DNA of 50,605 bases from a virus: positions 1-50,605 of the IMG/VR virus record IMGVR_UViG_3300037493_002198; one strand, 5' to 3'. The position numbers were made by a program, and so were the translations under genes. Positions 2,330 through 24,669 of this stretch are shown here, piece after piece (the stretch's first letter is position 1; each line of letters begins with the position of its first letter). Under the pieces are notes generated by a model that did no database searches, was not told the origin of the DNA, and worked only from the letters and a program-made list of their open reading frames with translations.

Positions 2330-2336
2330 TTTATGA

Positions 2337-2343
2337 TATTTAT
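2337..2343 (+). promoter_or_regulatory. TATTTAT promoter-like motif
   Basis: GATATTTATT lies 15 nt before the ATG of the 34-codon ORF at 2359. It belongs to the family of TATTTAT(A) elements that precede most leading genes here. Confidence 0.4.
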
Positions 2344-2358
2344 TGTTAAACAACAATA

Positions 2359-2463
2359 ATGGCAACAACAAGACCTTTTTCATATAATACAGGATCACCA
2401 ATCTCAGGAACAACTCAAGTGTTACAAAACTTCAATACCAATAAATCTAAATACGTGTTATAA
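2359..2463 (+). CDS. 34-aa ORF, possible remnant of a virion protein N-terminus
   Basis: ATG at 2359 opens a 34-residue frame beginning MATTRPFSYNTGSPISGTTQ and ending ...SKYVL with TAA at 2461-2463. It has a TATTTAT motif just upstream, like real genes here. The opening looks like the N-terminus of longer phage structural proteins (recalled pattern MATTRPF.YNTG..I.GT.QVG). After TTQV the expected continuation is lost, so this may be a truncated copy or decayed remnant left by recombination at the adhesin locus. It could equally be a genuine small protein. Confidence 0.4.
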   Translation: MATTRPFSYNTGSPISGTTQVLQNFNTNKSKYVL

Positions 2464-2515
2464 TCATATATTTACAGTTACCTAAACTTACCTATTAATT
2501 AAATATAAAAATCTA

Positions 2516-2523
2516 TATTTATA
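2516..2523 (+). promoter_or_regulatory. TATTTATA promoter-like motif
   Basis: The perfect octamer lies 13 nt before the ATG of the 526-aa Pro/Thr-repeat protein, in an AT-rich gap with no other signal. Confidence 0.5.
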
Positions 2524-2536
2524 TTAAAAGAATTTA

Positions 2537-4117: not shown

Positions 4118-4151
4118 GAATAAAAGTTTTTTACTATTGTTTTTTTTTAAT

Positions 4152-4159
4152 GATATTTT
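4152..4159 (+). promoter_or_regulatory. Variant TATTTTAT-type motif
   Basis: GATATTTTATT about 20 nt before the ATG at 4181 resembles the TATTTATA elements with one extra T. The only gap upstream (4118-4180) holds nothing else recognisable. Confidence 0.25.
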
Positions 4160-4180
4160 ATTATTAAAATAAAAAATCAT

Positions 4181-5428: not shown

Positions 5429-5429
5429 A

Positions 5430-6137
5430 ATGGAATTTGCTATAGCTACATTTTGTTATGGTGAAAGATACCATAAACAAACAAATAGATTAATTGAATC
5501 TATTAATAAGTTAGAAGATAAACCGAATCTTTATGTTGTTACAGATAACCCAGAAAGTATAACAAAAGAAAGTTTTGTATTTGTTAAAGATATTTCAGAA
5601 TATAATGAAAAATATAAAACTTATAAGACTAACTATTATGACTTTGACTTTTCGGTTAAAAGATTTTCGGTTAGGTTTGCACTTGAGAGTGGATTTACTA
5701 AAATAATTTTAACCGATACTGACGTAATTCCAAATTACCCAATATTCAATGAAAAGAATGTTTTGGAATGTTTTATCCCAAATAGCGTATCAGGTCAAGT
5801 CGTGTACCTTTTTGAAAACGAGGTTAAGACTAATAGTATGTTAGGTAGAAGATTCCTACATTATGAAAATAAATTCAATGTTAATTATAATAAAACAAAC
5901 TTATGGATGCCAGAGGATTGTATTCAATTTTTAGATATTGAGAAAGATAAATTCTACTCATTTTTATCTACATGGGATGAGTGTGTGAAAATAAAAGATA
6001 TTGATAATCTACATAACATTCCCGCAGGGAACATAGATGAAATGTCTTTTTCGGCACTTCATAATGGGGTACAACTTAATAATAATTCAAATATACATGT
6101 TAATTTGTTGGTTGCAAATCACGAAAAATGGTATTAA
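5430..6137 (+). CDS. Putative GT-A glycosyltransferase with DxD motif
   Basis: The product is 235 aa. An N-terminal strand (FAIATFCYGERYH) is followed by a helix and second strand (NLYVVTDNPES). Later comes FTKIILTDTDVIPNYPIF, a hydrophobic strand running into D-T-D, the arrangement of the metal-binding DxD site of GT8-like and related GT-A enzymes. No named family can be assigned from sequence alone. It sits one base after the GlcNAc-transferase-like gene and 6 nt before the next gene, so it is almost certainly co-transcribed with them. Confidence 0.5.
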   Translation: MEFAIATFCYGERYHKQTNRLIESINKLEDKPNLYVVTDNPESITKESFVFVKDISEYNEKYKTYKTNYYDFDFSVKRFSVRFALESGFTKIILTDTDVIPNYPIFNEKNVLECFIPNSVSGQVVYLFENEVKTNSMLGRRFLHYENKFNVNYNKTNLWMPEDCIQFLDIEKDKFYSFLSTWDECVKIKDIDNLHNIPAGNIDEMSFSALHNGVQLNNNSNIHVNLLVANHEKWY

Positions 6138-6143
6138 TCTAAT

Positions 6144-7058
6144 ATGAATAAAGTATATTACACAAGAAAAGAAGATAGTTTATGGACTATTCACGATTTA
6201 TTTAATGAGATTTCATTACATATGAAAAATAATTATGAATCTGAAATTATAACCCAATTTGGCGGTCTTGTTTATGTTAGTGAATTTGATTACCATATTG
6301 GTGATTGTGAGATTATTATTTATGATAATACTAGTGACATTCTTAAAGTCATATCGTTTTCTGAAACAAAAACAGAGATTATAGATATACTGAAAAATAG
6401 GAACAATAAAGACGATATTTTTGTTGTATTACACTATCTAAATTGGGGGGATAATTTAAGAAACTTAGAAGGGTATAATTTCACGTTAGAAATAACCACA
6501 TCTTATCCATTTAGTCCAAAAATTAATTATGATTATTTTTATCATATTAGGCAATTAAAAAAACAAGAGGATCTTATTGATCAAATGTTTTTTAAAACAA
6601 CAACAGGAAGGGGAGATGAAAAAAAACTATCTGATATTAATTTAATTAACCAATCATTTTCACCTAAACCATTTGACCAATACTTAGAAATGTCTATAAA
6701 CTATAAAATTGGTTTATCAATACCTGGTGGTGGATATGAATTATGTCATAGAGATTTTGATTGTATGTCGGTAGGTTTACCATTACTTAGGTTAGAACTC
6801 GTTGGTAAATATAACCCTGAGTTAATACCAAATTACCATTATATCTCAGTACCAAGAGATAATATCGGGTATGATAATTTTATTGATTTAAAAGGTGGTG
6901 ATAACTACATTAACGAATATAAAAAAAGATTTATGGATGTTAAAGATGATTTTGAGTTTTTAAACTTCATAAGTAAAAATTCCTTTCTATATTATAAGGA
7001 GAATTTAAGTCCTGAAAAAAGACTAATTAAAATATTAAACACATTAAAAATAAATTAA
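6144..7058 (+). CDS. Putative GT-B-like glycosyltransferase (hypothetical)
   Basis: The product is 304 aa. The N-terminal half is not recognisable. The C-terminal half contains IGLSIPGGGYELCHRDFDCM followed by SVGLPLLRLEL, which resembles the donor-site region of exostosin-like and other GT-B enzymes (Gly-rich loop, Arg/Asp, then M..G.P.l). The C-terminus is Lys-rich. Company in a run of glycosyltransferases and methyltransferases supports a sugar-transfer role, but the call is an inference. Confidence 0.4.
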   Translation: MNKVYYTRKEDSLWTIHDLFNEISLHMKNNYESEIITQFGGLVYVSEFDYHIGDCEIIIYDNTSDILKVISFSETKTEIIDILKNRNNKDDIFVVLHYLNWGDNLRNLEGYNFTLEITTSYPFSPKINYDYFYHIRQLKKQEDLIDQMFFKTTTGRGDEKKLSDINLINQSFSPKPFDQYLEMSINYKIGLSIPGGGYELCHRDFDCMSVGLPLLRLELVGKYNPELIPNYHYISVPRDNIGYDNFIDLKGGDNYINEYKKRFMDVKDDFEFLNFISKNSFLYYKENLSPEKRLIKILNTLKIN

Positions 7059-7061
7059 AAA

Positions 7062-7586
7062 ATGATAAATTATACTATTGAGAGTGAAAACTCTACCGAT
7101 CACTGGCCTTACTTTGAGAGTTCTAACCATAATGTTTTAGATTTGGGGTGTGGTAGATGGTACACGGATTTAAAAGAGGAGTTAAGTCCTTTTTATTTTG
7201 GGAGAAATGCTAATAAAGTTATTGGGATAGATTCAAACCCACAAGACATAGAATATTACACAAATGAAACAATTGATGATCCAAAATACACATTTGAAAG
7301 AATTGAATTGACTCACTCGGATCAATTTAAAGATTTAATAGTTAGATACTCAATTACCGCAATTAAATGTGATATAGAAGGATATGAATTAGCTATGTTA
7401 GATTTAACTAATGATGATTTAATTAATGTGGAAGAGTTAGCAATTGAGTACCATACTGAAGAATTAAAAAATAGTTTTATAAGTAGGGTTCAAGATTGGG
7501 GTTACGAAATAAAAGTAATGGCAAATTTTGCAAGAACTCCAGACAATTTAGGTGTTTTATTTTGTACTAAAAAAAATAAAAATTAA
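7062..7586 (+). CDS. FkbM-like SAM-dependent methyltransferase
   Basis: The product is 174 aa. Motif I is visible as NVLDLGCGRWYTD, the acidic end of beta 2 as VIGIDSNPQD, and the FkbM-type signature as IKCDIEGYELAML (family pattern K-D-x-E-G-x-E). FkbM enzymes O-methylate sugars and other hydroxyl groups. At 174 aa it is shorter than most but retains the whole core. It lies 3 nt after the preceding glycosyltransferase-like gene, consistent with capping or decorating a glycan made by this operon. Confidence 0.7.
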   Translation: MINYTIESENSTDHWPYFESSNHNVLDLGCGRWYTDLKEELSPFYFGRNANKVIGIDSNPQDIEYYTNETIDDPKYTFERIELTHSDQFKDLIVRYSITAIKCDIEGYELAMLDLTNDDLINVEELAIEYHTEELKNSFISRVQDWGYEIKVMANFARTPDNLGVLFCTKKNKN

Positions 7587-7597
7587 TTATTTAAGTG

Positions 7598-8227
7598 ATG
7601 AATATAAAAGAAAGAATAACAAAATTTACGGACTTAGAAAGTAATGATAGTTTATCAGAATTTGATAAACATTCCGCACAACAATTCCACGAAGCGTATG
7701 AAGTTTTTTATGACTTTATTAAAGAGATTAAACCAAAAAGAATTTTGGAGATCGGAACCGCAATGGGAGGGTTTACTAATTTTTTAAATGTTTGTTGTTT
7801 AGATTTAGGGTTAGATGTAAACATAAGAAGTTATGATATAAACAATTATCCATGGTATAACGACTTTATTAGTAAAGGTATTGATATAAGAGTTGAGAAT
7901 ATCTTTTCCAATAATTTTACTGAGATAGATAATGAGGTAATTGAATATATAAATGGTGAAGGTGTGACAATTGTTTTGTGTGATGGTGGTTGGAAAATAG
8001 GTGAGTTCACCTTAATCTCTAAACATATTAAACCTAATGATTTTATTTTAGCTCACGATTATGCTGAAAATAAAGAAATTTTTGAAGAAAAAATTAATGG
8101 TAAAATATGGAATTGGTTTGAAATATCTGACTCAGATATTTATCAATCAACAATTGATAATAACTTAATCATTTATAATAAATCCACATTTGAAAATGTG
8201 GCTTGGACTTGTAGAAAAAAAATATGA
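7598..8227 (+). CDS. Class I SAM methyltransferase, CmcI/rhamnosyl-O-methyltransferase-like
   Basis: The product is 209 aa. Motif I is RILEIGTAMGGFTNFL, beta 2 end IRSYDIN, and a later VLCDGGWKIGEFTLISKHIK leads to FILAHDYAEN. This pattern (ElGt..GgS...D...D.gh....) is that of the cephalosporin hydroxylase/CmcI group and small sugar O-methyltransferases. A GTG at 7595 directly precedes the ATG at 7598; the ATG is taken. The stop overlaps the next start as ATGA (8224-8227). Sugar methylation is inferred from context. Confidence 0.65.
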   Translation: MNIKERITKFTDLESNDSLSEFDKHSAQQFHEAYEVFYDFIKEIKPKRILEIGTAMGGFTNFLNVCCLDLGLDVNIRSYDINNYPWYNDFISKGIDIRVENIFSNNFTEIDNEVIEYINGEGVTIVLCDGGWKIGEFTLISKHIKPNDFILAHDYAENKEIFEEKINGKIWNWFEISDSDIYQSTIDNNLIIYNKSTFENVAWTCRKKI

Positions 8228-9900
8228 ATAATACAACATTAGTAACAGGATTATGGGATATTGGTAGAGGTGATTTAAGTGAAGGATGGTCAAGGTCATT
8301 TGATACTTACCTTACCAAATTTGAGGAACTTTTAAAATATGACGATAATATGATCATATTTGGTGATCAAAGAGTAATTGATTTTGCCAAAAATATTAGG
8401 GACGAAAAAAACACTCAATTTATTGTTAGAGATCTTGATTGGTTTAAAAATAATGAGTTCTATGAGAAAATCCAAACAATTAGAAATAATTCAGAATGGT
8501 ATAATCAATCCGGTTGGTTAAAAGACTCAACTCAAGCAAGATTAGAAATGTACAACCCTTTGGTTATGTCTAAAATATTTTTATTACATGATGCTAAACT
8601 TTTAGATAAATTTAATTCTGATTCATTATATTGGATAGATGCGGGGATTACCAACACTGTTCATTGGGGATATTTTACTCACGATAAAGTAATGGATAAA
8701 ATAAAAACCTTAACAAATAAGTTTTTATTTATTTGTTTTCCTTATGAAACTGATGTAGAGGTCCACGGGTTCAAATATTCCGAAATGAAAAGAATTACTA
8801 ATGACGAACCAAATATTGTTGCTAGAGGTGGTTTTTTTGGTGGTAGTAAAGAAACAATAAGTGAAATGAATGTATTATATTATAATATTATGTCAGACAC
8901 TCTAAATAATGGTCTAATGGGTACCGAAGAAAGTTTATTCACATTATTATTATATCAAAACCCACAACTAATTGATTATTGTGAAATTGAGGGTAATGGA
9001 TTAGTTTCTAAGTTTTTTGAGGATGTTAAAAATGATGAGGTTGTCATTAAGAATAAATCAAAACAAACACTATCAATAATTGAAAGACCAAATAATGTTG
9101 GGGTTTATGTTATAACATTTAATTCACCAAATCAATTACAAACCTTAATTGATTCTATGTTATTATATGACTCAAGTTTTATAGATAAAACAAAAAAGTT
9201 TTTGCTTGATAATTCAACGGACTTGGATACCACACCAAAATATTTAGAGATCTGTGAAAAATATGGTTTTAAACACATTAAAAAAGATAATATTGGTATA
9301 ACTGGCGGCAGACAGTTTATTGCAGAACATTTCAATGATCAGGAAGATCTTGGTTATTATTACTTTTTTGAAGATGATATGTTTTTTTATAACGGATCTG
9401 AACAAACTTGTAGAAACGGTTTTAATCGTTACATTAAAAACATATTTAACAATAGTTTAGATATAATTAAAAATGAAAATTTTGATTTTTTAAAATTAAA
9501 CTTCACAGAATTTTACGGGTCTCACGATAAACAATGGGCTTGGTATAATGTAGCTCAAGATTTTAGACAATTACATTGGCCAAATAACCAAAGACTACCA
9601 CAACAAGGTTTAGACCCAAATTCACCAAATTTAGAATTTAAACATATAAAATCATATCGTGGCACACCATATGTGTCAGGTGAAATATATCTTTCAAATT
9701 GGCCAATATTAATGACAAAAGAAGGTAACTATAATTGTTATCTTAAAACAAAATTCCAATACCCATATGAACAAACATTAATGAGTCATTGTTATCAGGA
9801 AACGATAAAAGGTAATATAAAGTCAGGTATTTTATTAGCAACACCAACCGAACACAATAGATTTGATCATTATGATGGTTCTTTAAGAAAAGAATGTTAA
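8224..9900 (+). CDS. Bifunctional HtrL/YibB-like and GT2-like glycosyltransferase
   Basis: The product is 558 aa with two parts. Residues about 1-270 match the HtrL/YibB pattern: TLVTGLWDIGRGDLSEGWSR at the start, then FDTYLTKFEELL, MIIFGD, and a YWIDAGI segment with acidic residue. HtrL/YibB proteins are encoded in LPS and capsule loci and are thought to be glycosyltransferases. Residues about 290-558 form a separate GT-A domain: VGVYVITFNSPNQLQTLIDS, a GITGGRQF loop, then YYFFEDDMFF with an acidic DxD-like site. The fusion would let one polypeptide add two sugars or add one and modify it. It is last in the operon, with translation coupled to the methyltransferase before it. Confidence 0.6.
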   Translation: MNNTTLVTGLWDIGRGDLSEGWSRSFDTYLTKFEELLKYDDNMIIFGDQRVIDFAKNIRDEKNTQFIVRDLDWFKNNEFYEKIQTIRNNSEWYNQSGWLKDSTQARLEMYNPLVMSKIFLLHDAKLLDKFNSDSLYWIDAGITNTVHWGYFTHDKVMDKIKTLTNKFLFICFPYETDVEVHGFKYSEMKRITNDEPNIVARGGFFGGSKETISEMNVLYYNIMSDTLNNGLMGTEESLFTLLLYQNPQLIDYCEIEGNGLVSKFFEDVKNDEVVIKNKSKQTLSIIERPNNVGVYVITFNSPNQLQTLIDSMLLYDSSFIDKTKKFLLDNSTDLDTTPKYLEICEKYGFKHIKKDNIGITGGRQFIAEHFNDQEDLGYYYFFEDDMFFYNGSEQTCRNGFNRYIKNIFNNSLDIIKNENFDFLKLNFTEFYGSHDKQWAWYNVAQDFRQLHWPNNQRLPQQGLDPNSPNLEFKHIKSYRGTPYVSGEIYLSNWPILMTKEGNYNCYLKTKFQYPYEQTLMSHCYQETIKGNIKSGILLATPTEHNRFDHYDGSLRKEC

Positions 9901-9938: not shown

Positions 9939-11720
9939 ATGGAATTTTTCATTAAAAAGAACGCTACTCTCCCTATATTAAAATTACAGGTTGTAAAAGA
10001 CGGTAGAAGCGATTACAATTCTTTCATGGATATGATTGAAGAGTCTGCTATCTTCTTTTCAATGACTAATGTTGAAACCGGGATTCCTAAAATATCAACA
10101 AGTCCTGCTGGATTTGTTGAGAAAGTACTTTTGGAACCTAATGCGGAACCTGAGTATTACATTTATTATCAATTCAAACCACAAGACACAAATAAAACCG
10201 CAAGATATGAGGCACAATTCTTATTAAGAAATTCTCAAGGAGTCTTAATACTACCAATACGAGAACAATTATTTATTAATGTACAAGAAAGTTTTATTGC
10301 GGAAGATTTACCATATGAAAGTTGTTATTTAATAGAATTCCCTTGTTGTAATAATGTATGTCCAACAACAACCACAACTACAACAGTTTGTTGTTGTCCA
10401 CCGGATGTTCCAACACCTACACCAACACCTACACTAACATCAACACCACCACCAACACCATTTGTTTCTGAACCAGCACCAATCGACGAATTCTGTATGG
10501 AAGTATCAATACAAACTTCAACTCCAACTCCAACACCAACAGTTACACCAAGCTCAACTCAAATACCTTGTTGTAATACTTGGTATTATTATGGTGGCAC
10601 ATCCGTTACAGGATCAACATTCTCTTATGTTGATTGTTCGGGTAACACATCCACATTTAGTGCTGCTACCGATTATGCCGCTACAATATGTGCAACTTCA
10701 GTTACAAAACTTACAGGTAACGGAACAACTTACCTTGAAAGTACTTGTACTTGTGTTCCTGTTCAACCAACACCAACACCAACATCAACTTTAACTCCAA
10801 CTCCAACTGTAACATCAACAGATCCACCACCAACTCCAACACCAACACCAACAAGTAGCGCAATACCCGTATTACAATGTATCACAAGTGTTGTGCCTCC
10901 AACAACAATTGGTGGGATAACAATAACCGAAACATTTACCGGTAGTGTCCAAATCTTTACAACCGCATTTAGTAGTTGTAGTGGGGGGGTAACAACTCCG
11001 GCTAACTCAAAATGGTTAGGACAAGGTGGTCCATTTTCTTATACTATGAATTTTAGTTTACCCGTTAATAATATTATCATATTTTTAACTGCGACTGATC
11101 TAAATGAAAATTTCATTTTCACAACTAATAGTGGAAGTGGTATACCAACAATCTCGACCACATTAAGTTGTTTTATAACAATAGTTGGTAATCAAATTAT
11201 TTGTGGAACAGCAATCGGTCTTGGCGGGGGAGGTAAGTTTCTTATACAAAATTCGACAAGTTTCACATCTCTTACAATTACCGGTAATGGTGGAGGGAGT
11301 GGTTCTTTATTATCAATATGTAGCAACTCAATTCAAACGATAACACCAACACCAACACCAAGTATAACACCAAGTATAACACCAACTAATACGGTAACGC
11401 CAACTAATACGGTAACACCAACAGTAACACCAACAAACACAATTACTCCAACGCCAGGATTATCCCCAACACCGACAAACACAATTACACCAACACCAGG
11501 ATTATCCCCAACCCCAACAGTTACTCCAACTTTAACAGTTACCCCAACTTTAACCAAAACTCCAACACCTACTCCAACTAAAACAAAAACACCAACGCCA
11601 ACTAAGACAACAACTCCAACACCTACTAAGACAACAACACCAACACCTACTCGAACCCCACCTAGTCTTGCGGTAGGACCATTTACGGCATTTGTGTCAT
11701 TTGACTCATATAATTGTTAA
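9939..11720 (+). CDS. Pro/Thr-linker modular virion protein with structural N-terminal domain
   Basis: The product is 593 aa. Residues 1-135 form a globular beta-rich domain ([20 protein letters not shown]; later [20 protein letters not shown]) reminiscent of phage baseplate or fibre adaptor domains. They are followed by a Cys cluster and poly-Thr ([18 protein letters not shown]). Then come PT linkers, a Cys module (about 210-277, YVDCSG and CTCVPV, shared with the 526-aa protein), another PT linker, a 150-residue Gly/Ser-rich beta module (about 318-467, [12 protein letters not shown] to LLSICS; three more copies in the 1562-aa protein) and a C-terminal PT/KTKTPTP tract. Probably a virion fibre or decoration anchored by its N-terminus. 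Its 3' end abuts the protease gene. Confidence 0.6.
10891..11340 (+). repeat. Beta-rich 150-residue module, copy 1 of 4
   Basis: Pattern: (I/V)xGxT(I/V)T..F.G, a F.Y.(M/L).FS.PVNN sentence, an ITTNSG/TFTTN segment, Cys in the middle, then G(G/T)F.I.(N/S)S.SFT.LT(I/V).G and a terminal IC. The other copies are at about 14256-14748, 15684-16206 and 17216-17704. It is a protein-domain repeat rather than a DNA repeat. Confidence 0.75.
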
Positions 11721-11730
11721 TAATAAAAAA

Positions 11731-13647
11731 ATGATAACAGAAGAAATAAATAAAATATTAAAAGAATGGAATGATAATACATCATCTGACGTTGGTGTTG
11801 GTTATGCCTTTAAACAAACCGGCGGTGTTTATAATGGAGAAATTTGTATATCGTTTAGTGTAAAAGAAAAAAAACCATTATCAGAATTATCTGAAGATGA
11901 AATATTACCTTCTGAAATAAAAATAAATAATAACTTAACATTAAAAACCGATGTAATACAAGTTGGGGAAGTTTCTGTTCTACAATGTAGTAGGACCACA
12001 CCAATAACCCCTAACCAACCTTGCGAACCTTTCGTATTAACGGCACCAACAAATAGATCTGCATTTGCCACGTTAAGAGGTGGTATATCAATAACCTCTG
12101 TTAATCAAGGATCATCAGTTGGGACATTAGGAATGATAGTTCAAGATATACATACAAATGCTTTGGTTGGTTTAACAAATAATCATGTTGTTATTGGAAA
12201 TTCAATTGCCGCTCAATATCAAAATTTAAATCCCTATTTAGGAAGTAATTTCCCGGCAACAAATGAAGTTTTACCAAATAGTAATTTTACTTGTCAACCA
12301 GGAGAATTTGGTTTCCAAACAAATATTAAATTTGGTCAAGTGGTAAGATATGTACCTTTAGTACCAAATGGTACTTTAAACTTAACAAATGGTGGTGGTT
12401 CCGGATCACCTTCTTTAGTTCCAAGAAATAGAGTAGATGGGGCCTTAGTTAGTATTGATTGTACTAAAATAGATTTTAATCAATCTTTTAGATTTTCGGG
12501 GTTTGAGGCTTTAATGCCTAATCCATTGCCTTTTGCAACAACGGCAGAAATTGATAACTTAATGGTCACAAACCCACAATTATACAGTTCGGGTAGATCA
12601 ACAGGACCAAAAGGTTTTGGTACGCCCGGTTGTGAGTTAAGAGTATTTGGTATTAATATGGCTCCAACACCAATTAATGGTTATAAATGGCACGTATCTG
12701 GAGGAGTTCAGTATGGAACGGCCGCCGCTTATGATAATAGATTAATTGCATTTTTTAAACCAAGTGGAAACGCGGCTCAACCCCATTGTTTATGGCCATG
12801 CGCCGCAGGAGATTCGGGGTCAATGTTAATTGCTAACTTTGGAACACAAACCGATCCAAACTTTAAAGTAATAGGTTTAGTATTTGCCGGAAATAGTTCA
12901 CCCTCTTATCCAAATACATGGAATGATAACAGTGGTTGTAACGTATTTACTTGTAATTACGGATCATACTCAGCTTGGTTAGGTTTTGCGTGTCGTATTG
13001 ATGATGTAGCAAATCAATTAGGTATAAAAGCATGGACAGGTGGGACCGCACCATTAGTTAATCCCGCATCAATAAATGTAATAACTTTACCCGGATTATC
13101 CCCAATAACAGCAACAACGTGTCAAAATAACTATTACTATCAGATTGGTACAACAATGGTACAAAATTCTTGTGGTGGTGCAAATTTTGGAGCAAAAAGC
13201 ATATTGCTTCAGAGCCCACAATTCCTTAATAGTCAAACGTTAAATACCGGTGTAAGACACCCTAACTGTGGTGGATTTAACTATAGTGTTGGTTTATTAT
13301 GGATTTTAACTGACTTCACAATAAACGACGTTATTAGTTATAGTTTATTAATGGAAGATATTAATGCACCTGGAACAAGTCTTAGTGGTTATTTTGTTCA
13401 TTGGAAAGTAATAAACATACTACCATCACAAACATCGATTAATTTATGGACATCAGGACCTTCTGGATGGCAACCAGGAGCAACAATACAACAAACAGAT
13501 TGGTTCCCAAGTACGGTTAACCCAAATGGTTATGGCGGACCTTGTCAACCTGGTCACACATATAGAATATCCATTACCGCAATTTTAAATCCAGCCGCCG
13601 GCGGAGGTACAGTAACAAGTAATTTACTTACATTTATTAGTAGTTAA
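11731..13647 (+). CDS. Trypsin-like serine protease with C-terminal accessory domain
   Basis: The product is 638 aa from the ATG at 11731; a longer frame from 11692 would overlap the previous gene and adds no domain. Residues about 105-430 form a chymotrypsin-fold protease. LTNNHVV places the catalytic His at about 152, RVDGALVSID the Asp at about 236, and CAAGDSGSML the Ser at about 362 with the canonical GDSGS. The N-terminal 100 residues carry a possible interaction or inhibitory segment. Residues about 435-638 form a Cys-containing beta-rich domain like the surrounding adhesins. It has no signal peptide and no PT linker. Lying between two PT-linker proteins, it may process them or act on the virion or host surface. 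T4-like prohead proteases are a different family, so this is not the capsid protease. Confidence 0.8.
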   Translation: MITEEINKILKEWNDNTSSDVGVGYAFKQTGGVYNGEICISFSVKEKKPLSELSEDEILPSEIKINNNLTLKTDVIQVGEVSVLQCSRTTPITPNQPCEPFVLTAPTNRSAFATLRGGISITSVNQGSSVGTLGMIVQDIHTNALVGLTNNHVVIGNSIAAQYQNLNPYLGSNFPATNEVLPNSNFTCQPGEFGFQTNIKFGQVVRYVPLVPNGTLNLTNGGGSGSPSLVPRNRVDGALVSIDCTKIDFNQSFRFSGFEALMPNPLPFATTAEIDNLMVTNPQLYSSGRSTGPKGFGTPGCELRVFGINMAPTPINGYKWHVSGGVQYGTAAAYDNRLIAFFKPSGNAAQPHCLWPCAAGDSGSMLIANFGTQTDPNFKVIGLVFAGNSSPSYPNTWNDNSGCNVFTCNYGSYSAWLGFACRIDDVANQLGIKAWTGGTAPLVNPASINVITLPGLSPITATTCQNNYYYQIGTTMVQNSCGGANFGAKSILLQSPQFLNSQTLNTGVRHPNCGGFNYSVGLLWILTDFTINDVISYSLLMEDINAPGTSLSGYFVHWKVINILPSQTSINLWTSGPSGWQPGATIQQTDWFPSTVNPNGYGGPCQPGHTYRISITAILNPAAGGGTVTSNLLTFISS

Positions 13648-13676: not shown

Positions 13677-16600
13677 ATGAATTATGATTTTAATTTTATT
13701 GGGTATTATAACTCAAAACCTTCATGGGTTGGTTATGATGGTGCAACACCATTAACGATTAGATGGAATTTAAACGGTTATTGGGAAATGATTGGTTGGC
13801 CTTATTGTGGTGAACCAAGATCAACAGATAACGATTCTTTTCCGGACATAAATTGGTTTATTTATGATCCAAGTAATACTTGTTCGTCAACATCTTTTGA
13901 TGTGACAATTGGTGCTTGTCCTTTACCCGGAATTGCATCATTCCAATCTTGTTGTGATTCTAACGTTATAATTAGAATAACAGATATACCAATAGGTTTA
14001 TTCCCTTTTTCGACTAATTCATATTATTTAATTTCCGCATTCTTTACAGGTTGTCTAACCTATGTTTCACCAAGTACACCACCAACACTTTTCTTTTCAT
14101 TTGACGATTTAACGGATCAGTTAATAGAACAACTTGGTGGATGTGGTCCGTGTACAATAAATTATCCTTGTGATGCGGTAACACCAACACCAACTCCAAC
14201 AACATTACCACCAACACCAACACCAACACCTGTTTGTCCAATATGCCCAACGGTTAGTGCCTTACCCGTTTTAGGATCTTCAACAACAATTAATGGTGTT
14301 ACAGTAACCGCCTCAGGTTTTGGTGATGTGTCCTTTACCTCATCATTCGGATTTGTTTCGTGGTGTATGGTCGGATCACCTCCGACAGTGAATGGAAATG
14401 TATGGTTAGGACCAACAAGTTCATTTACATATATATTAAATTTTAGTGTACCGGTTAATAATATAGTGATAAGATTAATAAATTATAATATTAACTCAAG
14501 TGGTAGTGAATCATTTACGTTTACAACAAATACAGGTAATCCTATATTATCATCTTGTGATTATTGTTGTGCAACAATTAACGGAAATGTTGTTACCGCA
14601 GCCTATTGCCCATTAGGATCACCATCCGCCGATATGGGTGGGGGTACATTTACAATTTCAAATTCTTCATCTTTTACAACATTAACAGTAACAGGTCCTG
14701 GAGGTTTGGGAGGAACTATTATGGACATATGTTCAGATTCGGTACAACCCCCATCAACACCTACACCTACACCTACAGTTACACCAACAGATCCACCCCC
14801 AACACCAAGTAACACTCCATCATCCACACCAGCACCTGTTAATACAGATTGTTTTCCATTGTTGATGGAAAATTCATGGACTGGTTCAGGATTTCTTTTA
14901 AAAGTTTATGTGTACGACCCAATCAATTCGATAGCAACTCAAATTAATTTACCTCAGTCAACAGGAATAACCGGTCAAGGTATTGCCAATACAACAAATA
15001 AATTATGGATTCTTATGCAACCCGGTAACATAAGAGAATGGAATATAACTTTATCCCCATGGTCTGCGGTTTGGTCAAGAGATATAATATCTCCAGATTT
15101 AACAATTCCGGACATCGGTTGGTTGGCGAATGGATTATGTGTTTATAGAGATCCAATCACAAATTTAATTAACCCAAATATATTAGTATCCATGGGGTAC
15201 AATGTTCCCGTAATTGGTGGGTTCCAAGTAGTTTTAGTTGATATAACAGGATCTGTTTGGGTTAAAACACCAATATATACTTTTCCAAGTACAACTAGGG
15301 TTGTTGAAGATATTATAATGAACCAAAATGGTAAAATGATAATGACAACTAGTGATAATTTAACTGGTCAAGCTTATATAACACAACTACAGTTTGTTGG
15401 GGGGTCTTGGCAATCACAGATTGACTTTCCAATACCAATAACTGTTGCACAATCAATATTCCAATGGGGAACCTTCTTTTATATTCCAACAACAAATGGT
15501 ATTTTATATACAATACAAACATCACCACCATATACAACAACACTATTAGGTTCTTTAACACCTGCTGGTGTTATGGATTCATCACAATCAGAAGATTGTG
15601 TTACATTAGAATTTACAGTTCCCGCACCAACACCTACACCAACCCAAACACCTGTTTCAGTTGTTTGTTGTGAAAACGAATACGAGGCACCATTATTGGG
15701 CAATAGTGTTGTAATAAATGGAATAACGGTTACAGGTTCAGGATCAGGTAGTGTAATTTCACTTTCTCTACCTAACCCAGCAATTCCCGGTTGTGAAACA
15801 ATACCACTTCCTTTTAATAACTGCGTTCGATTGGGTAACAACTCATTTCCATTTAATCTTAACCCATCTTTCATTTACACGATGACATTTAGTTCACCCG
15901 TAAATGATGTGACCATACATTTAATCGATTACACAATAGTTAATGGTATTCCAGAATCATTTACTATAACAACAGATGTTGGTAACCCAACTATAAGTGG
16001 ATGTGGTAATTGTTGTTCGGTAATCACAAATAACACAATTACAGCAAGTTTAAGTGGTACTAATTGTATCATAACAATTTTTGGACAAGATGGCGGATCG
16101 GGAAGATTCACAATTAGCGCATCATCATCATTTACAACATTAACAATATCAGGTCCTGGAGGTGGTGGAGGTTCATTATTAAAACTTTGTGATATTGGTA
16201 CACCACTAACCCCAACCCCAACATCAACCCCAACCGTAACACCTACACCAGGTTTACCTTGTTTGGCCGAATGTAACATATTGTTTAATAACTCACCAGA
16301 TATATTTTCATACAATTTTTTATTAAATACAAGTACCTATCTAAACCCATTTATTAGTGGATTTATACCTGGAAGTTCTGACATTGCCCACACATCTAAT
16401 AAAATATTCATGTATACAAGTGATAAGATTTATGAATATGATTACATAAACTGCCCATTTAGTGCGTCTTTTAACAGAATAATAAACATTCCTGTTGGAA
16501 CTCAGTTAGGGAATGGATTGACTGCAATAAATAATACGACACTAGTTAGTACTAATGGTTTCTCACTCGGACAGTTGTGTATTGAAATAGATATTACAAC

Positions 16601-18365
16601 CACGAATGCACTTGTTGCAACTCAATTCCCACTTACTAATAGAAGTGTACAGGGTGACTTAGTATATACCACAACAGCCCAACCTAAATTATTGGCATTA
16701 GTCGGAGATATTGCGGGAAATTCATATTTATCCCAATATGATTATGCAACAGGTATTCTTGAGGTTGATGTTAATATTAATGTAATCAATGGTCCTTTTG
16801 GTTTATTTATTGAAAACGGTCAAATTTATGTAACTTCCGCAAATGGACAAATATGGGGGGTTGGTTTGACTTTCCCTTACCCATTAACATTAATCCAAAA
16901 TTCACCTTATCCAGTTGGTGGAGCATCAAGTATCCCTGAGTGTTCAGATGTGGAGTTATACCTTAGTGGTGCCACACCAACACCAACTCCAACTAATACG
17001 GTTACACCAACCGTAACACCAACAAACACCCAAACACCCACAGTTACCCCAACAGATCCTCCACCGACGTATTCTCCAACACCAACAAATACTCCAACAA
17101 ATACCTCAACCACAACTATTACCCCAACCCCAACCACAACTATCACCCCCACTAAAACAAATACCCCAACTCCAACCCCAACAAACCCAATAGGTGGTTG
17201 TTGCCCGATAGATAATGCATTACCATTAGAATTACCTGTAAACATAAGTGGAGTTACAATAAGTGAAACACATACAGGATTTGTATCACAAGGATCACCA
17301 ATAACTTTTGTTCCTTCATGTGGATCATCATCAATCACATTAAACCCACCACTATTATTAGGTCAAAACGCATTCTCATATGTGTTAACATTTAGTAATC
17401 CTGTAAATAACTTAACAATTAGATTAGTTAATTATAGATATACACCAACAGGTACCGATTCATATACAATCACCACAAATAGTGGTAACCCAGTAATAAC
17501 ATCATGTGAGTATTGTTGTGCAACTATTGTTAATAATGTTATTACGGCAACACAAGACCTGACCAATATTTACTGTAACAGTACTTTTGGTATTGGTAGT
17601 GGTTTATTTACCTTTAACGCAGTGGTTCCATTCACAACACTTACAATTGCAGGTCCGGGTAATGGATCAAGTGGTGTTTACGCATCTATCTGTAATTTTG
17701 ATGCAATACCTGCGGTAACACCAACTCCAACACCAACCAAAACTCCAACACCAACTCCAACACCTCAACCAGCAATATTAACATATTTAGTTAATGATTG
17801 TTGTACCCGAACACCAAAATATGTTAATTTACCAAACTATTTTGTTGCGGGTAATGTCATTGTTGGATCAGATTTTAAATGTTATGTAGTTGTTAATGTT
17901 CAATTTGGTATAGTAAATTTAACATGGTTTAATAACATAACATTTAGTAGTTGTGTTGATTGTTTAACTGAATTACCATGTACAACACCAACCCCAACAC
18001 CAACTAATACTAAGACTCCAACACCAACAGTTACTAAAACTCCAACGGTAACCCCAACGATAACCCCAACTAAAACGGTAACACCAACTAAAACGGTAAC
18101 ACCAACACCAACTAAAACGGTAACACCAACAGTAACTAAAACAAAAACTCCAACTCCAACACCAACACCAAGTTGTTTTTATTATAGAATTGTTAATAAT
18201 AATGCAACAAAAGAGATTTCAATAACATTTACACCTTGTTGTCTTACCGAAATTTCACCATTAATTATTGGACCATTAGGGATAACTTTTATTTGTTCGT
18301 CTACCACACCATCAGTACCTGCGAATGTTACCGCTACTTTATTAGGAAATTGTCCTACTTGTTAA
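13677..18365 (+). CDS. Giant Pro/Thr-linker modular adhesin
   Basis: The product is 1562 aa. Visible order: an N-terminal domain (1-85); a Cys-rich module (about 88-165, CC...CGPC...PC); PT; beta module copy 2 (about 194-357); PT with DPPPTP; a 240-residue repeat-rich domain resembling a beta-propeller (about 392-641: NKLWILMQPG, KMIMTTSDN, FFYIPTTNG); PT; beta module copy 3 (about 670-843); PT; a second propeller-like domain (about 861-1097: NKIFMYTSDKIYEYD, GQIYVTSANGQIWG); a long PT tract containing the shared 41-residue string; beta module copy 4 (about 1180-1343); PT; a Cys-rich module (about 1365-1435); a KTPTPT tract; and a terminal Cys domain. It is probably a long flexible virion fibre. 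It follows the protease gene by 29 nt, likely in the same transcript. Confidence 0.6.
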   Translation: MNYDFNFIGYYNSKPSWVGYDGATPLTIRWNLNGYWEMIGWPYCGEPRSTDNDSFPDINWFIYDPSNTCSSTSFDVTIGACPLPGIASFQSCCDSNVIIRITDIPIGLFPFSTNSYYLISAFFTGCLTYVSPSTPPTLFFSFDDLTDQLIEQLGGCGPCTINYPCDAVTPTPTPTTLPPTPTPTPVCPICPTVSALPVLGSSTTINGVTVTASGFGDVSFTSSFGFVSWCMVGSPPTVNGNVWLGPTSSFTYILNFSVPVNNIVIRLINYNINSSGSESFTFTTNTGNPILSSCDYCCATINGNVVTAAYCPLGSPSADMGGGTFTISNSSSFTTLTVTGPGGLGGTIMDICSDSVQPPSTPTPTPTVTPTDPPPTPSNTPSSTPAPVNTDCFPLLMENSWTGSGFLLKVYVYDPINSIATQINLPQSTGITGQGIANTTNKLWILMQPGNIREWNITLSPWSAVWSRDIISPDLTIPDIGWLANGLCVYRDPITNLINPNILVSMGYNVPVIGGFQVVLVDITGSVWVKTPIYTFPSTTRVVEDIIMNQNGKMIMTTSDNLTGQAYITQLQFVGGSWQSQIDFPIPITVAQSIFQWGTFFYIPTTNGILYTIQTSPPYTTTLLGSLTPAGVMDSSQSEDCVTLEFTVPAPTPTPTQTPVSVVCCENEYEAPLLGNSVVINGITVTGSGSGSVISLSLPNPAIPGCETIPLPFNNCVRLGNNSFPFNLNPSFIYTMTFSSPVNDVTIHLIDYTIVNGIPESFTITTDVGNPTISGCGNCCSVITNNTITASLSGTNCIITIFGQDGGSGRFTISASSSFTTLTISGPGGGGGSLLKLCDIGTPLTPTPTSTPTVTPTPGLPCLAECNILFNNSPDIFSYNFLLNTSTYLNPFISGFIPGSSDIAHTSNKIFMYTSDKIYEYDYINCPFSASFNRIINIPVGTQLGNGLTAINNTTLVSTNGFSLGQLCIEIDITTTNALVATQFPLTNRSVQGDLVYTTTAQPKLLALVGDIAGNSYLSQYDYATGILEVDVNINVINGPFGLFIENGQIYVTSANGQIWGVGLTFPYPLTLIQNSPYPVGGASSIPECSDVELYLSGATPTPTPTNTVTPTVTPTNTQTPTVTPTDPPPTYSPTPTNTPTNTSTTTITPTPTTTITPTKTNTPTPTPTNPIGGCCPIDNALPLELPVNISGVTISETHTGFVSQGSPITFVPSCGSSSITLNPPLLLGQNAFSYVLTFSNPVNNLTIRLVNYRYTPTGTDSYTITTNSGNPVITSCEYCCATIVNNVITATQDLTNIYCNSTFGIGSGLFTFNAVVPFTTLTIAGPGNGSSGVYASICNFDAIPAVTPTPTPTKTPTPTPTPQPAILTYLVNDCCTRTPKYVNLPNYFVAGNVIVGSDFKCYVVVNVQFGIVNLTWFNNITFSSCVDCLTELPCTTPTPTPTNTKTPTPTVTKTPTVTPTITPTKTVTPTKTVTPTPTKTVTPTVTKTKTPTPTPTPSCFYYRIVNNNATKEISITFTPCCLTEISPLIIGPLGITFICSSTTPSVPANVTATLLGNCPTC
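14256..14748 (+). repeat. Beta-rich module, copy 2 of 4
   Basis: INGVTVTASGFGDVSF to GTIMDICSD, with FSVPVNNIVIRL and SFTTLTVTGPGG in the conserved positions. Confidence 0.75.
15684..16206 (+). repeat. Beta-rich module, copy 3 of 4
   Basis: INGITVTGSGSGSVIS to GGSLLKLCD, with FSSPVNDVTIHL and SFTTLTISGPGG in the conserved positions. Confidence 0.75.
16983..17105 (+). repeat. 123-nt segment shared with 3224-3346
   Basis: Encodes the same 41 residues as 3224-3346, including [17 protein letters not shown]. Differences in the DNA are mostly synonymous. Confidence 0.8.
17216..17704 (+). repeat. Beta-rich module, copy 4 of 4
   Basis: ISGVTISETHTGFVSQ to GVYASICNF, with FSNPVNNLTIRL and FTTLTIAGPGNG in the conserved positions. 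Confidence 0.75.
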
Positions 18366-21627: not shown

Positions 21628-22752
21628 TTATATAACGTAAATTTGTCTTGGCATCGCTCTAAACTTAAGTGATTTATTTAAGTTTTCCGCAATTAATGCT
21701 TCTCGTTCCATTACTTTTTCAGGTTTTAACCTTGTTAATCTACCTTCAGGTCCGGTAAGTTCATCAATAAGTTTTGTTTTTTCATCTTTTGCCTCAGTTG
21801 CTAAAGATGTATAATCCATTGTTAACTCAGAATCGGGGGTTTTAATGTTACCACTAAATTTACCTCGAACTCTTGCCAATGTTTCTTTACAGTATGCGGT
21901 AAACCATCTACGAACCCAAACTTGTGCCGGATTATTTAGATCAACCCAAGACATCTGTTGGAATGGAACGTCCGATGGCATTTGAATGATGTCTGGGTTA
22001 TTTTTTAAACAATTGTCTTTATCTTCCTCACAGGCATCATAATACCAATACCAAACTCTACCTTTCATTAATGTACCATTTCCAAAGTCAAATTTACCTC
22101 CGGGTGTATTCATTAAGTGAATCGCTTTTTTACCTTCAGGTAACGCTGTAACCCTATATGTTAAATCACCTTGTATTATTCTTCTTTGTATATTAATTTC
22201 TTGCATTCTTAACAACATATCAAACGCTGGCATCATAAAGTAACTACCTGCCATATTACCCATTTGAGTAAATCCGCCAGGTCCCCCCAATCCTCCACCG
22301 GCAATTCCACCAAAAGTCCACGGATCTATTAATGTATTATTTAATTCTGCCGGAGAAAACCACAGTAATTCGTTAAGTTCTCTACACGCAGGTATTTCAT
22401 AAATTTGTTGGTTACCAACTAATTGAATGTAATCTTTCTTTAAAACATAGTCACCACCAGCCTGTAATCCTACAATTTTAGAATAGGCATATGTGTATCT
22501 TGTTTCATAATCTAAACTTTTAGAAATAAATGCCTTTGCCAAAGATTGGGTTTCAACATTTAACCCCCAAAGGTTTGACCATTGAGATTCAATTAACCAA
22601 TCTTGGATATATTGTGAATAATCATCAATAGAGAATTCTAACAATGTGTCCATTTGTTCATCCTCTAACTCGACACTACGAAGTGGTGCACCTAATAGAT
22701 GACGAATTCTTGTGTATAATTTACTTCTTTCTGGTTCTGAAATTATTGCCAT
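21628..22752 (-). CDS. Neck protein, T4 gp13-like
   Basis: The product is 374 aa. The N-terminus (RHLLGAPLRSVELEDEQMDT followed by LLEFSIDDYSQYIQDWL) matches the gp13-like pattern LG.P...VEl.DEQ.d..l..a...y. A Gly-rich insert (GGIAGGGLGGPGG) follows at about 147-160, then VDLNNPAQVWVRRWFTAYCK with ETLARVRGKFSG, a conserved stretch of head-completion proteins in marine myoviruses, and a basic C-terminus. Gp13 sits on the portal and joins head to tail. It is separated from its usual partner gp14 (26536) by a reverse-strand block, an uncommon arrangement. It has a TATTTATA motif upstream (complement 22765-22772). Confidence 0.6.
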   Translation of the reverse strand: MAIISEPERSKLYTRIRHLLGAPLRSVELEDEQMDTLLEFSIDDYSQYIQDWLIESQWSNLWGLNVETQSLAKAFISKSLDYETRYTYAYSKIVGLQAGGDYVLKKDYIQLVGNQQIYEIPACRELNELLWFSPAELNNTLIDPWTFGGIAGGGLGGPGGFTQMGNMAGSYFMMPAFDMLLRMQEINIQRRIIQGDLTYRVTALPEGKKAIHLMNTPGGKFDFGNGTLMKGRVWYWYYDACEEDKDNCLKNNPDIIQMPSDVPFQQMSWVDLNNPAQVWVRRWFTAYCKETLARVRGKFSGNIKTPDSELTMDYTSLATEAKDEKTKLIDELTGPEGRLTRLKPEKVMEREALIAENLNKSLKFRAMPRQIYVI

Positions 22753-22774: not shown

Positions 22775-23869
22775 TTATTTTTTAGTTCTTAAAAGATATA
22801 ACTCATTTACAAACTCCCAATTTACGTGATCCCAAAACTTTTTAACATATTCGTCTCTTTTGTTTCTATAACGTAAATAATATGCGTGTTCCCAAACATC
22901 AAGACCTAATAAAGGATAACCACCGTCTTTAACGACACTCATCATTGGATTATCTTGGTTGGGGGTCGATACAACTTTTAATCTACCACTTTTAGTGAGA
23001 ACTAACCAAACCCACCCTGATCCAAATCGATCTTTTGCCGTTTGATTAAATTCATCTTTCATTTTTTTTATGTTACCATATTGTTTTGTAATCTTTTCAA
23101 ATACTTCACCACTTGGTTTTTGTCTTTTCGGAGATAACATTTTCCAAAACAATGCGTGATTAAAGGCACCCCCCGCATTATTTCTAATTGTGATATTATA
23201 TTTACCAATAGATTTAACAATATCTTCTAACTCAACATCACCATAATCTTTTTTAGATAATGCATCATTAAGTTTTTTTACATATCCTTTATAATGTTTA
23301 TTATAATGTACATTCATTGTTTCAGGATCAACAAACTGATTTAATGAGGAATATGAGTATGGTAATTTATCAATACCAATTTTTTTCATTTCCATTAAAA
23401 AATTTTCACGGATGTTTTCCTTTTCAGTTAATAATATTTGTTCGTTTAATAAATTGATTTTTTTTCCAATACCAACTAAACCTTCATACATTATTTTTTC
23501 ATATTTTGGGAAATCACGTTCAAATTTTTTAATTACGGAACCCGCTTCAGAGTTTGCTTCATCCTCATTTGGACCACCAATATCTTGACCTCTTTCCATA
23601 CCTTTAGTTGATCTTTGCCACTCATGAACCCATTCGTGCGCCAATGTTCTACAAACATCTCTGTTTAATCTACCTTTGGTTAAAATTTTAAGTTCCGAAT
23701 TATCATTTCTACTACCCGTTGACATACCTTCAGTTTTCTCACCTAAAAATAAAACTGTAACATCATTTTTAACGGGGTATTTTTTTTGTAGGTATTTTAA
23801 AAAATCCCTCATTAGTTCCCTATCCTCTTTGGACATATCACATTTAATATGTTTAACTGTAACTTTCAT
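22775..23869 (-). CDS. Fusion of HExxH zinc metallopeptidase-like domain and Mn-type superoxide dismutase
   Basis: The product is 364 aa. Residues 1-130 hold LAHEWVHEWQ (H78, E79, H82) followed by GGPNEDEANSEAG, an HExxH plus E-(A)-N arrangement like gluzincins of the ImmA/IrrE kind. About 168-360 is a complete Fe/Mn SOD: LPYSYSSLNQFVDPETM then VHYNKHY (ligand H188, gateway Y196), NNAGGAFNHALFW (H238), FGSGWVWLVL, STPNQDNP (Q305) and LGLDVWEHAYY (D324, H328). All four metal ligands are kept. Gly234 together with Gln305 is the pattern of Mn rather than Fe enzymes. A Lys/Glu-rich helix joins the halves. It has its own TATTTAT motif and follows a terminator. SOD removes superoxide; what the peptidase half does is unknown. 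Confidence 0.85.
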   Translation of the reverse strand: MKVTVKHIKCDMSKEDRELMRDFLKYLQKKYPVKNDVTVLFLGEKTEGMSTGSRNDNSELKILTKGRLNRDVCRTLAHEWVHEWQRSTKGMERGQDIGGPNEDEANSEAGSVIKKFERDFPKYEKIMYEGLVGIGKKINLLNEQILLTEKENIRENFLMEMKKIGIDKLPYSYSSLNQFVDPETMNVHYNKHYKGYVKKLNDALSKKDYGDVELEDIVKSIGKYNITIRNNAGGAFNHALFWKMLSPKRQKPSGEVFEKITKQYGNIKKMKDEFNQTAKDRFGSGWVWLVLTKSGRLKVVSTPNQDNPMMSVVKDGGYPLLGLDVWEHAYYLRYRNKRDEYVKKFWDHVNWEFVNELYLLRTKK

Positions 23870-23874
23870 TAATC

Positions 23875-23881
23875 ATAAATA
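23875..23881 (-). promoter_or_regulatory. TATTTAT promoter-like motif
   Basis: GATATTTATGATT on the reverse strand ends only 5 nt before the ATG at 23869. If it is a promoter, the mRNA would be nearly leaderless or the true start lies further in (Met12 of the product). Confidence 0.4.
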
Positions 23882-23890
23882 TCATATAAA

Positions 23891-23917
23891 ACAAAAAACC
23901 CACCGAGTGGTGGGTTT
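23891..23917 (-). terminator. Rho-independent terminator
   Basis: Perfect 9-bp stem AAACCCACC (23896-23904) / GGTGGGTTT (23909-23917) with a GAGT loop. On the reverse strand it is followed by TTTTTTGTTTT, so it ends the 24298-23933 transcript just before the promoter of the SOD fusion gene. Confidence 0.85.
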
Positions 23918-23932
23918 AATAATTTTATTTTT

Positions 23933-24298
23933 TTAATTCAGATCTTCTTCTGGCTCTTCTTCTGATGGTGGTTCTTCGTTAAGAAATAAACCTAACTCAG
24001 TTGCCTTTGTTGTCATACAGTTAAAAAATGTATCGTACACGTTTGTTGGTGTTGTTGTAATATTTTGACTTAAACTATTCATTACGTAACTTCTACAATT
24101 TAAAAAATTTTCTTTTGTTTCAATTTGTTGACAAGGACCAGGAATCATATCAATAGAATACCCTAACATATCAAAGCAGTTAATAAAATCATCAGTTGAC
24201 TCAACTAATAAACCTTTTTGTTTAAGATATCTTTGCTCAACAATTAAATTAGCTTGTTGAGTTTTTCTAATTTTAGTTTGACTCCTACTATTTGACAT
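23933..24298 (-). CDS. Hypothetical protein, acidic C-terminus
   Basis: The product is 121 aa and unrecognised. The N-terminus is basic and Gln-rich (MSNSRSQTKIRKTQQANLIV), the middle has four spaced Cys (CFDML, PCQQ, NCRSY, NCMTT), and the tail is strongly acidic (EEPPSEEEPEEDLN). Its ATG overlaps the stop of the gene before it (TAATG, 1 nt shared), so the pair is translationally coupled. Both have regularly spaced Cys and similar size and may form a complex. A strong terminator follows. Confidence 0.6.
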   Translation of the reverse strand: MSNSRSQTKIRKTQQANLIVEQRYLKQKGLLVESTDDFINCFDMLGYSIDMIPGPCQQIETKENFLNCRSYVMNSLSQNITTTPTNVYDTFFNCMTTKATELGLFLNEEPPSEEEPEEDLN

Positions 24299-24669
24299 TA
24301 ATATCTTCTATTAATTCTTCTTTTATTTTCATTAATACTTGCGTTCATAACTGGTGAAACATTTCCGACACATTCCAAACATTTTTTCGCTAAATCCATT
24401 ATTCTTTTAGCACTACCCATAGGGTCTAAAATATTAATATCAAGTTTCTTTTGTGCCATAGGGATAACTTCTTGTACACAAGCCTGAATTTTTGTTGTGT
24501 CTGTTGGGTTTTGTTGTAATTCAAGACAAGGTGCTAATTTAATTAAATCTTCGACACTCATATTAGTTGCAGTTGCTAAACAAGTTAACACATCTCCGTT
24601 ACCTTCTTTTATAATTCGTCTAATTAATCTAGATAAATCAGCTTCGGTTAATCTTATAGTTTTTCTCAT
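24298..24669 (-). CDS. Hypothetical protein with capsid-targeting-like N-terminal leader
   Basis: The product is 123 aa. It opens MRKTIRLTEADLSRLIRRII then KEGNG, an amphipathic helix ending Ile-Lys-Glu before Gly23. T4 prohead protease (gp21) cuts after (L/I)-x-E, and T4 internal proteins carry such cleavable N-terminal targeting sequences, so residues 1-22 may be a packaged-protein leader. The rest has Cys pairs (CLATATN, CLELQ, CVQEV, KKCLECVG) and a basic C-terminus. The prohead protease itself is not in this window. A TATTTAT motif lies at complement 24689-24695. Confidence 0.55.
   Translation of the reverse strand: MRKTIRLTEADLSRLIRRIIKEGNGDVLTCLATATNMSVEDLIKLAPCLELQQNPTDTTKIQACVQEVIPMAQKKLDINILDPMGSAKRIMDLAKKCLECVGNVSPVMNASINENKRRINRRY

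Follow-up and report, generated by a model that had tools for sequence, protein, structure and literature searches.

A fused HExxH metallopeptidase-like and superoxide dismutase gene of T4-like phages, a candidate head cargo

The fusion gene and its neighbours

The window (the whole stretch of 50,605 nucleotides analysed here, IMG/VR record IMGVR_UViG_3300037493_002198) carries on its minus strand an open reading frame in which an HExxH domain is joined through a linker to an Fe/Mn superoxide dismutase (SOD). The frame agrees exactly with the limits given in the preliminary description, and the fusion of an HExxH metallopeptidase-like domain with a Mn-type SOD proposed there is borne out by Pfam, by PDB comparison and by the relatives, so that the fusion of the N-terminal domain (N-domain) with the SOD can be regarded as a confirmed feature of the window phage. 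The gene, its parts and its surroundings are as follows.

21628..22752, minus strand: neck (gp13-like) gene, head-tail adaptor Ad2 (PHROG 211, E 9.7e-11)
22775..23869, minus strand: fusion gene of 364 aa, HExxH domain, linker and Fe/Mn SOD, with 134 distinct full-length relatives
22796..23380, minus strand: predicted Mn-type Fe/Mn SOD domain, residues 164-358 (Pfam, PDB, NCBIfam)
23306-23308, 23156-23158, 22898-22900 and 22886-22888, minus strand: codons of the SOD ligands H188, H238, D324 and H328, in that order
23381..23491, minus strand: linker, residues 127-163 (37 residues), rich in hydrophobic-x-Glu sites (by motif density)
23387..23398, minus strand: candidate site LME/M (cut after E), residues 158-161; E160 and M161 invariant in 134/134
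23438..23449, minus strand: candidate site LNE/Q (cut after E), residues 141-144; [LI]xE in 118/134
23480..23491, minus strand: candidate site MYE/G (cut after E), residues 127-130; [MVIL][YF]E in 134/134
23492..23869, minus strand: predicted zincin-like metallopeptidase domain, residues 1-126 (AlphaFold2 and Foldseek)
23552..23566, minus strand: E102-D-E104-A-N, probable third metal ligand on the next helix; E102 and E104 invariant in 134/134
23624..23638, minus strand: HExxH motif H78-E79-W-V-H82, invariant in 134/134
23875..23881, minus strand: TATTTAT element 5' of the fusion, a 7-mer enriched upstream of genes (13/33 window genes)
23896..23917, minus strand: terminator-like hairpin separating the fusion from the upstream gene
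23933..24298, minus strand: small upstream gene with LIVEQ and LLVES within its first 35 residues (translation)
24298..24669, minus strand: small gene with the N-terminal tag MRKTIRLTEADLSRLIRRIIKEG (translation, tag family)

The position between a terminator and a gp13-like gene, and the promoter motif, had both been described from the letters of the window, and both descriptions hold, the hairpin and the Ad2 gene flanking the fusion and a promoter of its own being plausible. The TATTTAT element (core of GATATTTATA) also stands ahead of 12 of the 32 other window genes, including sheath, tube and neck, with about 11-fold enrichment in the 60 bases before genes, and it is likely a phage promoter element; generic sigma-70 matches are no commoner than in shuffles. 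It corresponds to the T4 late promoter box TATAAATA read in reverse complement, and because it is also found before the DNA polymerase gene it is not strictly a late signal. Homologues of the small gene at 23933..24298 lie upstream of the fusion in many loci.

On the other side, the same neck-like gene follows the fusion on the same strand in 120/120 distinct proteins with room for it on the contig, and the gap is nearly always within about 200 bases. The constant adjacency of the neck gene could be read as the mark of a neck-associated structural protein, bound to the gp13-like ring on the outside of the virion, whose SOD would protect the particle from environmental oxidants. We consider this very improbable, given that gene adjacency is weak evidence for contact, that no locus shows a shared domain or a fusion with the neck protein, and that the linker sites are typical of the prohead interior. 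A SOD fused to the neck protein had been suggested by the first long relatives (about 700 aa) and was rejected, the neck gene being always separate and the additional residues belonging to other modules. As regards the host, the isolate whose neck gene comes closest is Microcystis phage Mel-JY01 (22% identity).

Elsewhere in the window, three plus-strand genes (2537-4117, 9939-11720 and 13677-18365) encode proteins with long stretches of Pro-Thr-rich repeats and PHROG 15511 in common, and adjoin a glycosyltransferase cluster (1424-9900); the products are possibly glycosylated surface or fibre proteins. A further plus-strand gene (11692-13647) combines a GDSGS-type protease-like region (PHROG 20754, protease) with a following PEBP-like domain (Pfam PBP, E 3.5e-7).

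Two conserved domains in a large phage family

The SOD half matches both domains of the Fe/Mn family in Pfam, Sod_Fe_N at residues 166-246 (E 8.7e-21, 74.6 bits against a cut-off of 27) and Sod_Fe_C at residues 252-356 (E 2.3e-39, 134 bits against 20.9), and the nearest solved chains to the fusion are Fe/Mn SODs (6gsc, E about 2e-61). The NCBIfam Mn model scores 190.6 bits and the Fe model 164.1, both under the strict cut-offs of those equivalogs. The four metal ligands H188, H238, D324 and H328, the gateway Y196 and the G234/Q305 pair, all singled out in the preliminary description, are invariant together with G322 in 134/134 distinct full-length relatives. A C-terminal Gln and a Gly at X(D-2) are strong indicators of Mn preference, although not proof of it (PMC10172142), and both are present among the invariant residues, as Q305 and G322. 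The conserved residues support a SOD half that is catalytically complete and of the Mn type.

The first half is recognized by fold. Residues 1-130 match no Pfam family above its cut-off, none of the Pfam metallopeptidase models reaches its cut-off on the HExxH domain, the ImmA/IrrE family gives no match even at E 0.1, and a PDB sequence profile search with the N-domain and modules A2 and A3 returned chance matches only. An AlphaFold2 model built from a 23-sequence alignment (pLDDT 88.7, pTM 0.84) has helices at 69-89 and 100-119, with the HExxH motif followed by a Glu on the next helix. The fold search proposed earlier for this half leads to Wss1, IrrE-like and SprT-like folds: Foldseek against PDB gives metalloproteases at high probability with weak E-values (Wss1, probability 0.98, best E 9.6e-3), and against the BFVD viral models it gives many phage proteins, with E down to 5e-14, some of them named IrrE N-terminal-like or SprT-like (E down to 3e-7), as well as similar domains within larger phage proteins that bear other enzymes. 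This model and these matches make it very likely that the N-domain is a small zincin. H78, E79, H82, E102 and E104 are invariant in 134/134 relatives, and the acidic D103-E104-A105-N106 motif pointed out earlier is present in the window protein, residue 103 being D in 132 relatives and N in 2. The E-x-x-A-N sequence is reminiscent of ImmA/IrrE. A cellular origin of the domain was considered and rejected, a pattern-limited scan of 84,980 prokaryote genomes having found 0 relatives.

Related phages also encode short HExxH proteins that stand alone and do not lie at the neck gene, and several of them stop exactly at ...MYE, the domain border in the fusion. Relatives of 129 aa lie near 8001-8390 in L153, L154, L158 and L173, far from the neck gene, and adjoin FKBP-like genes, in L173 also a DnaK-like one.

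The queries put to IMG/VR were the N-domain alone, the full-length protein, a profile, and two distantly related members. This search of metagenomic contigs, which had been recommended at the outset, recovered 134 distinct full-length fusions of N-domain and SOD; the window's own genome record holds one copy. Because the fusion recurs on independent contigs, chance and assembly error are excluded, the latter having been named in the preliminary description among the things that could undo the finding. The T4-like phages that carry the fusion form a large family from lakes and other environments. Its dN/dS against close relatives is mostly 0.03-0.10 in both domains, and both are, by this measure, under purifying selection. 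None of the recovered loci showed an intact gene in which the SOD part stood without an HExxH part. At one locus (L277, match 5001-6080) a stop within the SOD part splits the fusion into frames of 202 and 523 residues.

Among annotated phage genomes, 0 of 50,697 records cover 80% of the fusion, so that no isolated phage in this collection carries it, and the open-access papers searched contain no earlier report of it, in agreement with the initial statement that no description was known. The accompanying statement that SOD genes are rare in phages stood, yet such genes are already known, for example in PA5oct-like Pseudomonas phages and Vibrio phage 2.275.O (24-28% identity). One SOD-bearing record from freshwater, 'Bacteriophage sp.' MW462191, was set aside, its neighbouring genes looking bacterial or prophage-like. 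In the open-access literature searched we found no phage precedent for a phage-encoded or virion SOD, nor the fusion, its abundance, the exchange of its modules or its predicted head-protease joints, and SOD is not named in the polyvalent-protein or jumbo-phage surveys examined. Fe/Mn SODs, zincins, T4 internal proteins, polyvalent proteins and SOD genes in a few phages are already known.

Exchangeable modules and candidate prohead-protease sites

Like the window protein, 34 of the 134 fusions end after the SOD, and about 70% carry further C-terminal modules (nucA 26, nucB 30, modD 26, small 12, small plus nucB 4); the labels come from clustering and regular expressions, a few may be misplaced, and 2/134 are cut by contig ends. 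The nucA module is supported as a nuclease-like family by its AlphaFold model (pLDDT 81.5), whose best PDB matches in Foldseek are restriction endonucleases (Eco15I N-domain, entry 3ndh, NhoI and PvuII, with probabilities of about 0.5-1.0 and E 0.009 to 0.7), and its invariant E...D...SCK pattern is consistent with these matches. The nucB module is assigned to a nuclease-like family by motif only: its NE..YA...GQD...QVK pattern is invariant and of the kind seen in PD-(D/E)XK nucleases. The remaining families are modD, without an assigned kind, and one small repeated module, of which a stand-alone homologue, 66% identical to a fused copy, lies in the head cluster of G001, a genome that carries the fusion (L200:6713-7159). 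The longest architecture among those recovered (L169:2308-5184, 958 residues) runs HExxH, SOD, small, small, nucB, with INES or INEH at its joints. On the tree of N-domain and SOD the module type changes at least 24 times (least possible 5), which indicates that the C-terminal modules have been exchanged many times. PADLOC gave nothing convincing on the fusion and its modules, and its Cas3d match to the SOD region (E 0.0067) was judged to be chance; Pfam gave no confirmation of a Bacteroidota secretion domain that had been suspected in one relative.

The joints between these parts share a motif. In the fusions, [LI]xE[SAGQ] occurs 2 times in 16,723 residues of N-domain (0.01 per 100 aa), 136 times in 5,220 residues of the first linker (2.61), 4 times in 25,757 residues of SOD (0.02), 83 times in 3,430 residues of the second linker (2.42) and 32 times in 28,936 residues of C-terminal modules (0.11). 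Per 100 aa the first linker has 2.6-2.9 motifs where the domains on either side have 0.00-0.05, and 22 diverse members hold 23 motifs in this linker against a shuffle mean of 3.4 and maximum of 8. Because the first linker is one homologous stretch, its counts are not independent events, and the second linker together with the additional joints of L169 is a stronger argument. The known gp21 substrates of T4 give 3.7 (gp22) and 2.5 (gp67) per 100 as positive controls, against 0.19 in portal and 0.15 in sheath as negative controls.

The prohead proteases of T4 and of giant phages recognize x-x-E motifs and cleave behind the Glu (PMC5694885), a rule that the joint motif fits; in T4, gp21 trims IPI, IPII, IPIII and Alt and also breaks down the core (PMC9958956). 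The head protease of the window phage is not visible within the 50 kb window and lies outside it. The related G001 and G009 contigs both carry the fusion; G001 encodes a head maturation protease (PHROG 207, E 6.9e-43), and G009 a homologous open reading frame at the same place in its head cluster (L202:10800-11531). On two fusion contigs the gp23-type capsid protein has SFLINE/ATG, as against SFLTE/AEI in T4 gp23 (the slash marks the cut, predicted for the relatives), a comparison made by motif and position and not column by column, the aligner having placed a gap inside the stretch. The portal gene of G001 (L200:2874-5969) has an in-frame interruption, intein-like and with an HNH endonuclease (portal matches at 658-917, HNH at 229-335).

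The same motif recurs in other proteins of these phages. Fusion contigs also encode a scaffold protein that is acidic and has ends of the type SINESTSINES. When 296 non-redundant proteins are ordered by how strongly the motif is enriched, many of the highest places fall to core and scaffold proteins of the head, and after these come small proteins whose recurrent N-terminal tag ends in the motif; over all ranked proteins, the first 38 residues hold 0.67 motifs per 100 against 0.24 elsewhere. Because single p-values are modest (best 1.2e-4 before correction), the ranking serves as supporting evidence only. The tag, of 20-25 residues, reads M(K/R)(K/R)xIRLTExDLxRIVxRVIxE followed by S, G or Q and is found on diverse small proteins (window 24298-24669, minus strand; L202:9917-10264; L301:2820-3092; L319:4695-4937; L243:2663-3076), and a second type reads M..KILITEEEKxxIKSLYNINEQ. 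These tags look like capsid-targeting propeptides that end in a head-protease site. That the first linker might be a copy of them was rejected, no significant similarity being found.

The fusion itself starts with a folded domain and shows no T4-type N-terminal capsid-targeting propeptide. It could be a soluble bifunctional enzyme acting in the producing cell only, in which the SOD clears superoxide from the cytoplasm of the dying host, the metallopeptidase degrades a host or phage protein and the linker is merely a flexible helix. The lack of a targeting tag suits this explanation, as do the SOD being a normal catalytic domain and the free-standing SODs of the PA5oct relatives. We nevertheless hold it to be rather unlikely, because the motif is near-absent in the domains and concentrated at every joint, those of unrelated modules included, because the neck-gene link is unbroken, and because modules, nucleases among them, have been exchanged repeatedly, as is more to be expected of cargo than of a housekeeping enzyme.

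A different agent for the cutting is suggested by the polyvalent proteins (Iyer et al. 2017), where zincin-like metallopeptidase domains form the hub and are proposed to process the chain (PMC5512222). Here the HExxH domain would itself cut the fusion, before packaging or after injection; none of the 134 fusions lacks the domain, whereas their C-terminal modules vary, and in the fold searches similar domains turn up as parts of larger phage proteins that hold other enzymes. However, the joint motif belongs to a Glu-specific head protease, and it recurs in the scaffold, the core and the capsid propeptide, none of which the HExxH domain need touch, the stand-alone copies have nothing attached to cut, and the domain falls below every Pfam metallopeptidase cut-off. 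As a full account self-cutting seems improbable, and for part of the processing it is a live alternative.

We lean, with no great confidence, towards the reading that the fusion is a modular head cargo of a T4-like myovirus, cut by a gp21-type prohead protease and delivered with the DNA. Because the joints resemble head-maturation protease sites, the enzymes are probably packed in the head and injected. The protein would be made beside the neck gene and taken into the prohead core, where the protease would cut the linkers at hydrophobic-x-Glu sites and leave inside the capsid a free zincin-like metallopeptidase and a free Mn SOD, and in relatives nucleases or other modules. The freed enzymes would stay in the head and enter the cell together with the DNA; the SOD would remove superoxide, either in the newly infected cell or near the genome as it lies packaged or enters. 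The metallopeptidase may act on a host protein, as the nucleases may on host targets. What is observed is the fusion with its conservation, the module exchange, the neck-gene link, the position of the candidate sites and, in related genomes, the protease; from these we infer packaging, cleavage, injection and the enzyme activities. The cargo reading draws on the invariant SOD and HExxH residues, the low dN/dS, the motif density at the joints, the module changes and the neck link; against it stand the missing targeting peptide of the T4 kind, the location of the window phage's head protease outside the window and the 16/134 fusions without [LI]xE at 141-143. The preliminary description had suggested that the peptidase half tethers the enzyme or targets a regulator, and the comparative evidence points instead to a modular cargo that is probably processed by the prohead protease.

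A broader view, which we hold tentatively, is that T4-like phages in nature free, by means of their head-maturation protease, a rotating set of enzymes (metallopeptidase, SOD, restriction-type nucleases) from one polyprotein within the capsid, so that an antioxidant defence is injected together with the genome. If this is true, the phage head holds a ready-made superoxide dismutase, superoxide limits the packaged or entering genome, which points to a host response or environmental stress seldom considered, and module swaps at protease-site joints are a general route for changing phage cargo. The joint rule (hydrophobic-x-Glu and N-terminal tags) would then predict internal head cargo in uncultured T4-like phages.

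Comparison with known systems

With the Fe/Mn SODs (SodFM) the fusion shares both Pfam domains, the four ligands, the gateway Tyr, the C-terminal Gln and the Gly two residues ahead of the Asp ligand, associated with Mn preference (PMC10172142); it differs in its N-terminal metallopeptidase domain and linker and in being phage-encoded, and its relatives add C-terminal modules. The N-domain resembles the IrrE/ImmA-like, SprT-like and Wss1-like zincins in predicted fold and in the arrangement of HExxH and Glu, and differs from them in that its sequence matches neither Pfam families nor PDB chains significantly. Like the polyvalent proteins (PMC5512222), the fusion is a multidomain chain with a zincin-like metallopeptidase hub, at least two enzymatic or effector domains and exchangeable effectors such as nucleases; it is shorter, has head-protease-like joints and an HExxH domain below the Pfam cut-off, and the words 'superoxide' and 'dismutase' are absent from that survey. 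For giant eukaryotic viruses, too, a viral SOD is listed among the virion proteins (reviewed in PMC9405923); the megavirus enzyme cited there is a free-standing Cu,Zn-SOD, and the viruses are different ones. A SOD is not described among the T4 internal proteins in the sources examined. The internal head proteins of T4 (IPI-III, Alt) and the fusion have in common candidate hydrophobic-x-Glu sites, a genome with a gp21-type protease, a structural neighbourhood and a presumed delivery of enzymes with the DNA, and the fusion is set apart from them by the absence of an N-terminal capsid-targeting sequence and by carrying several enzymes per chain.
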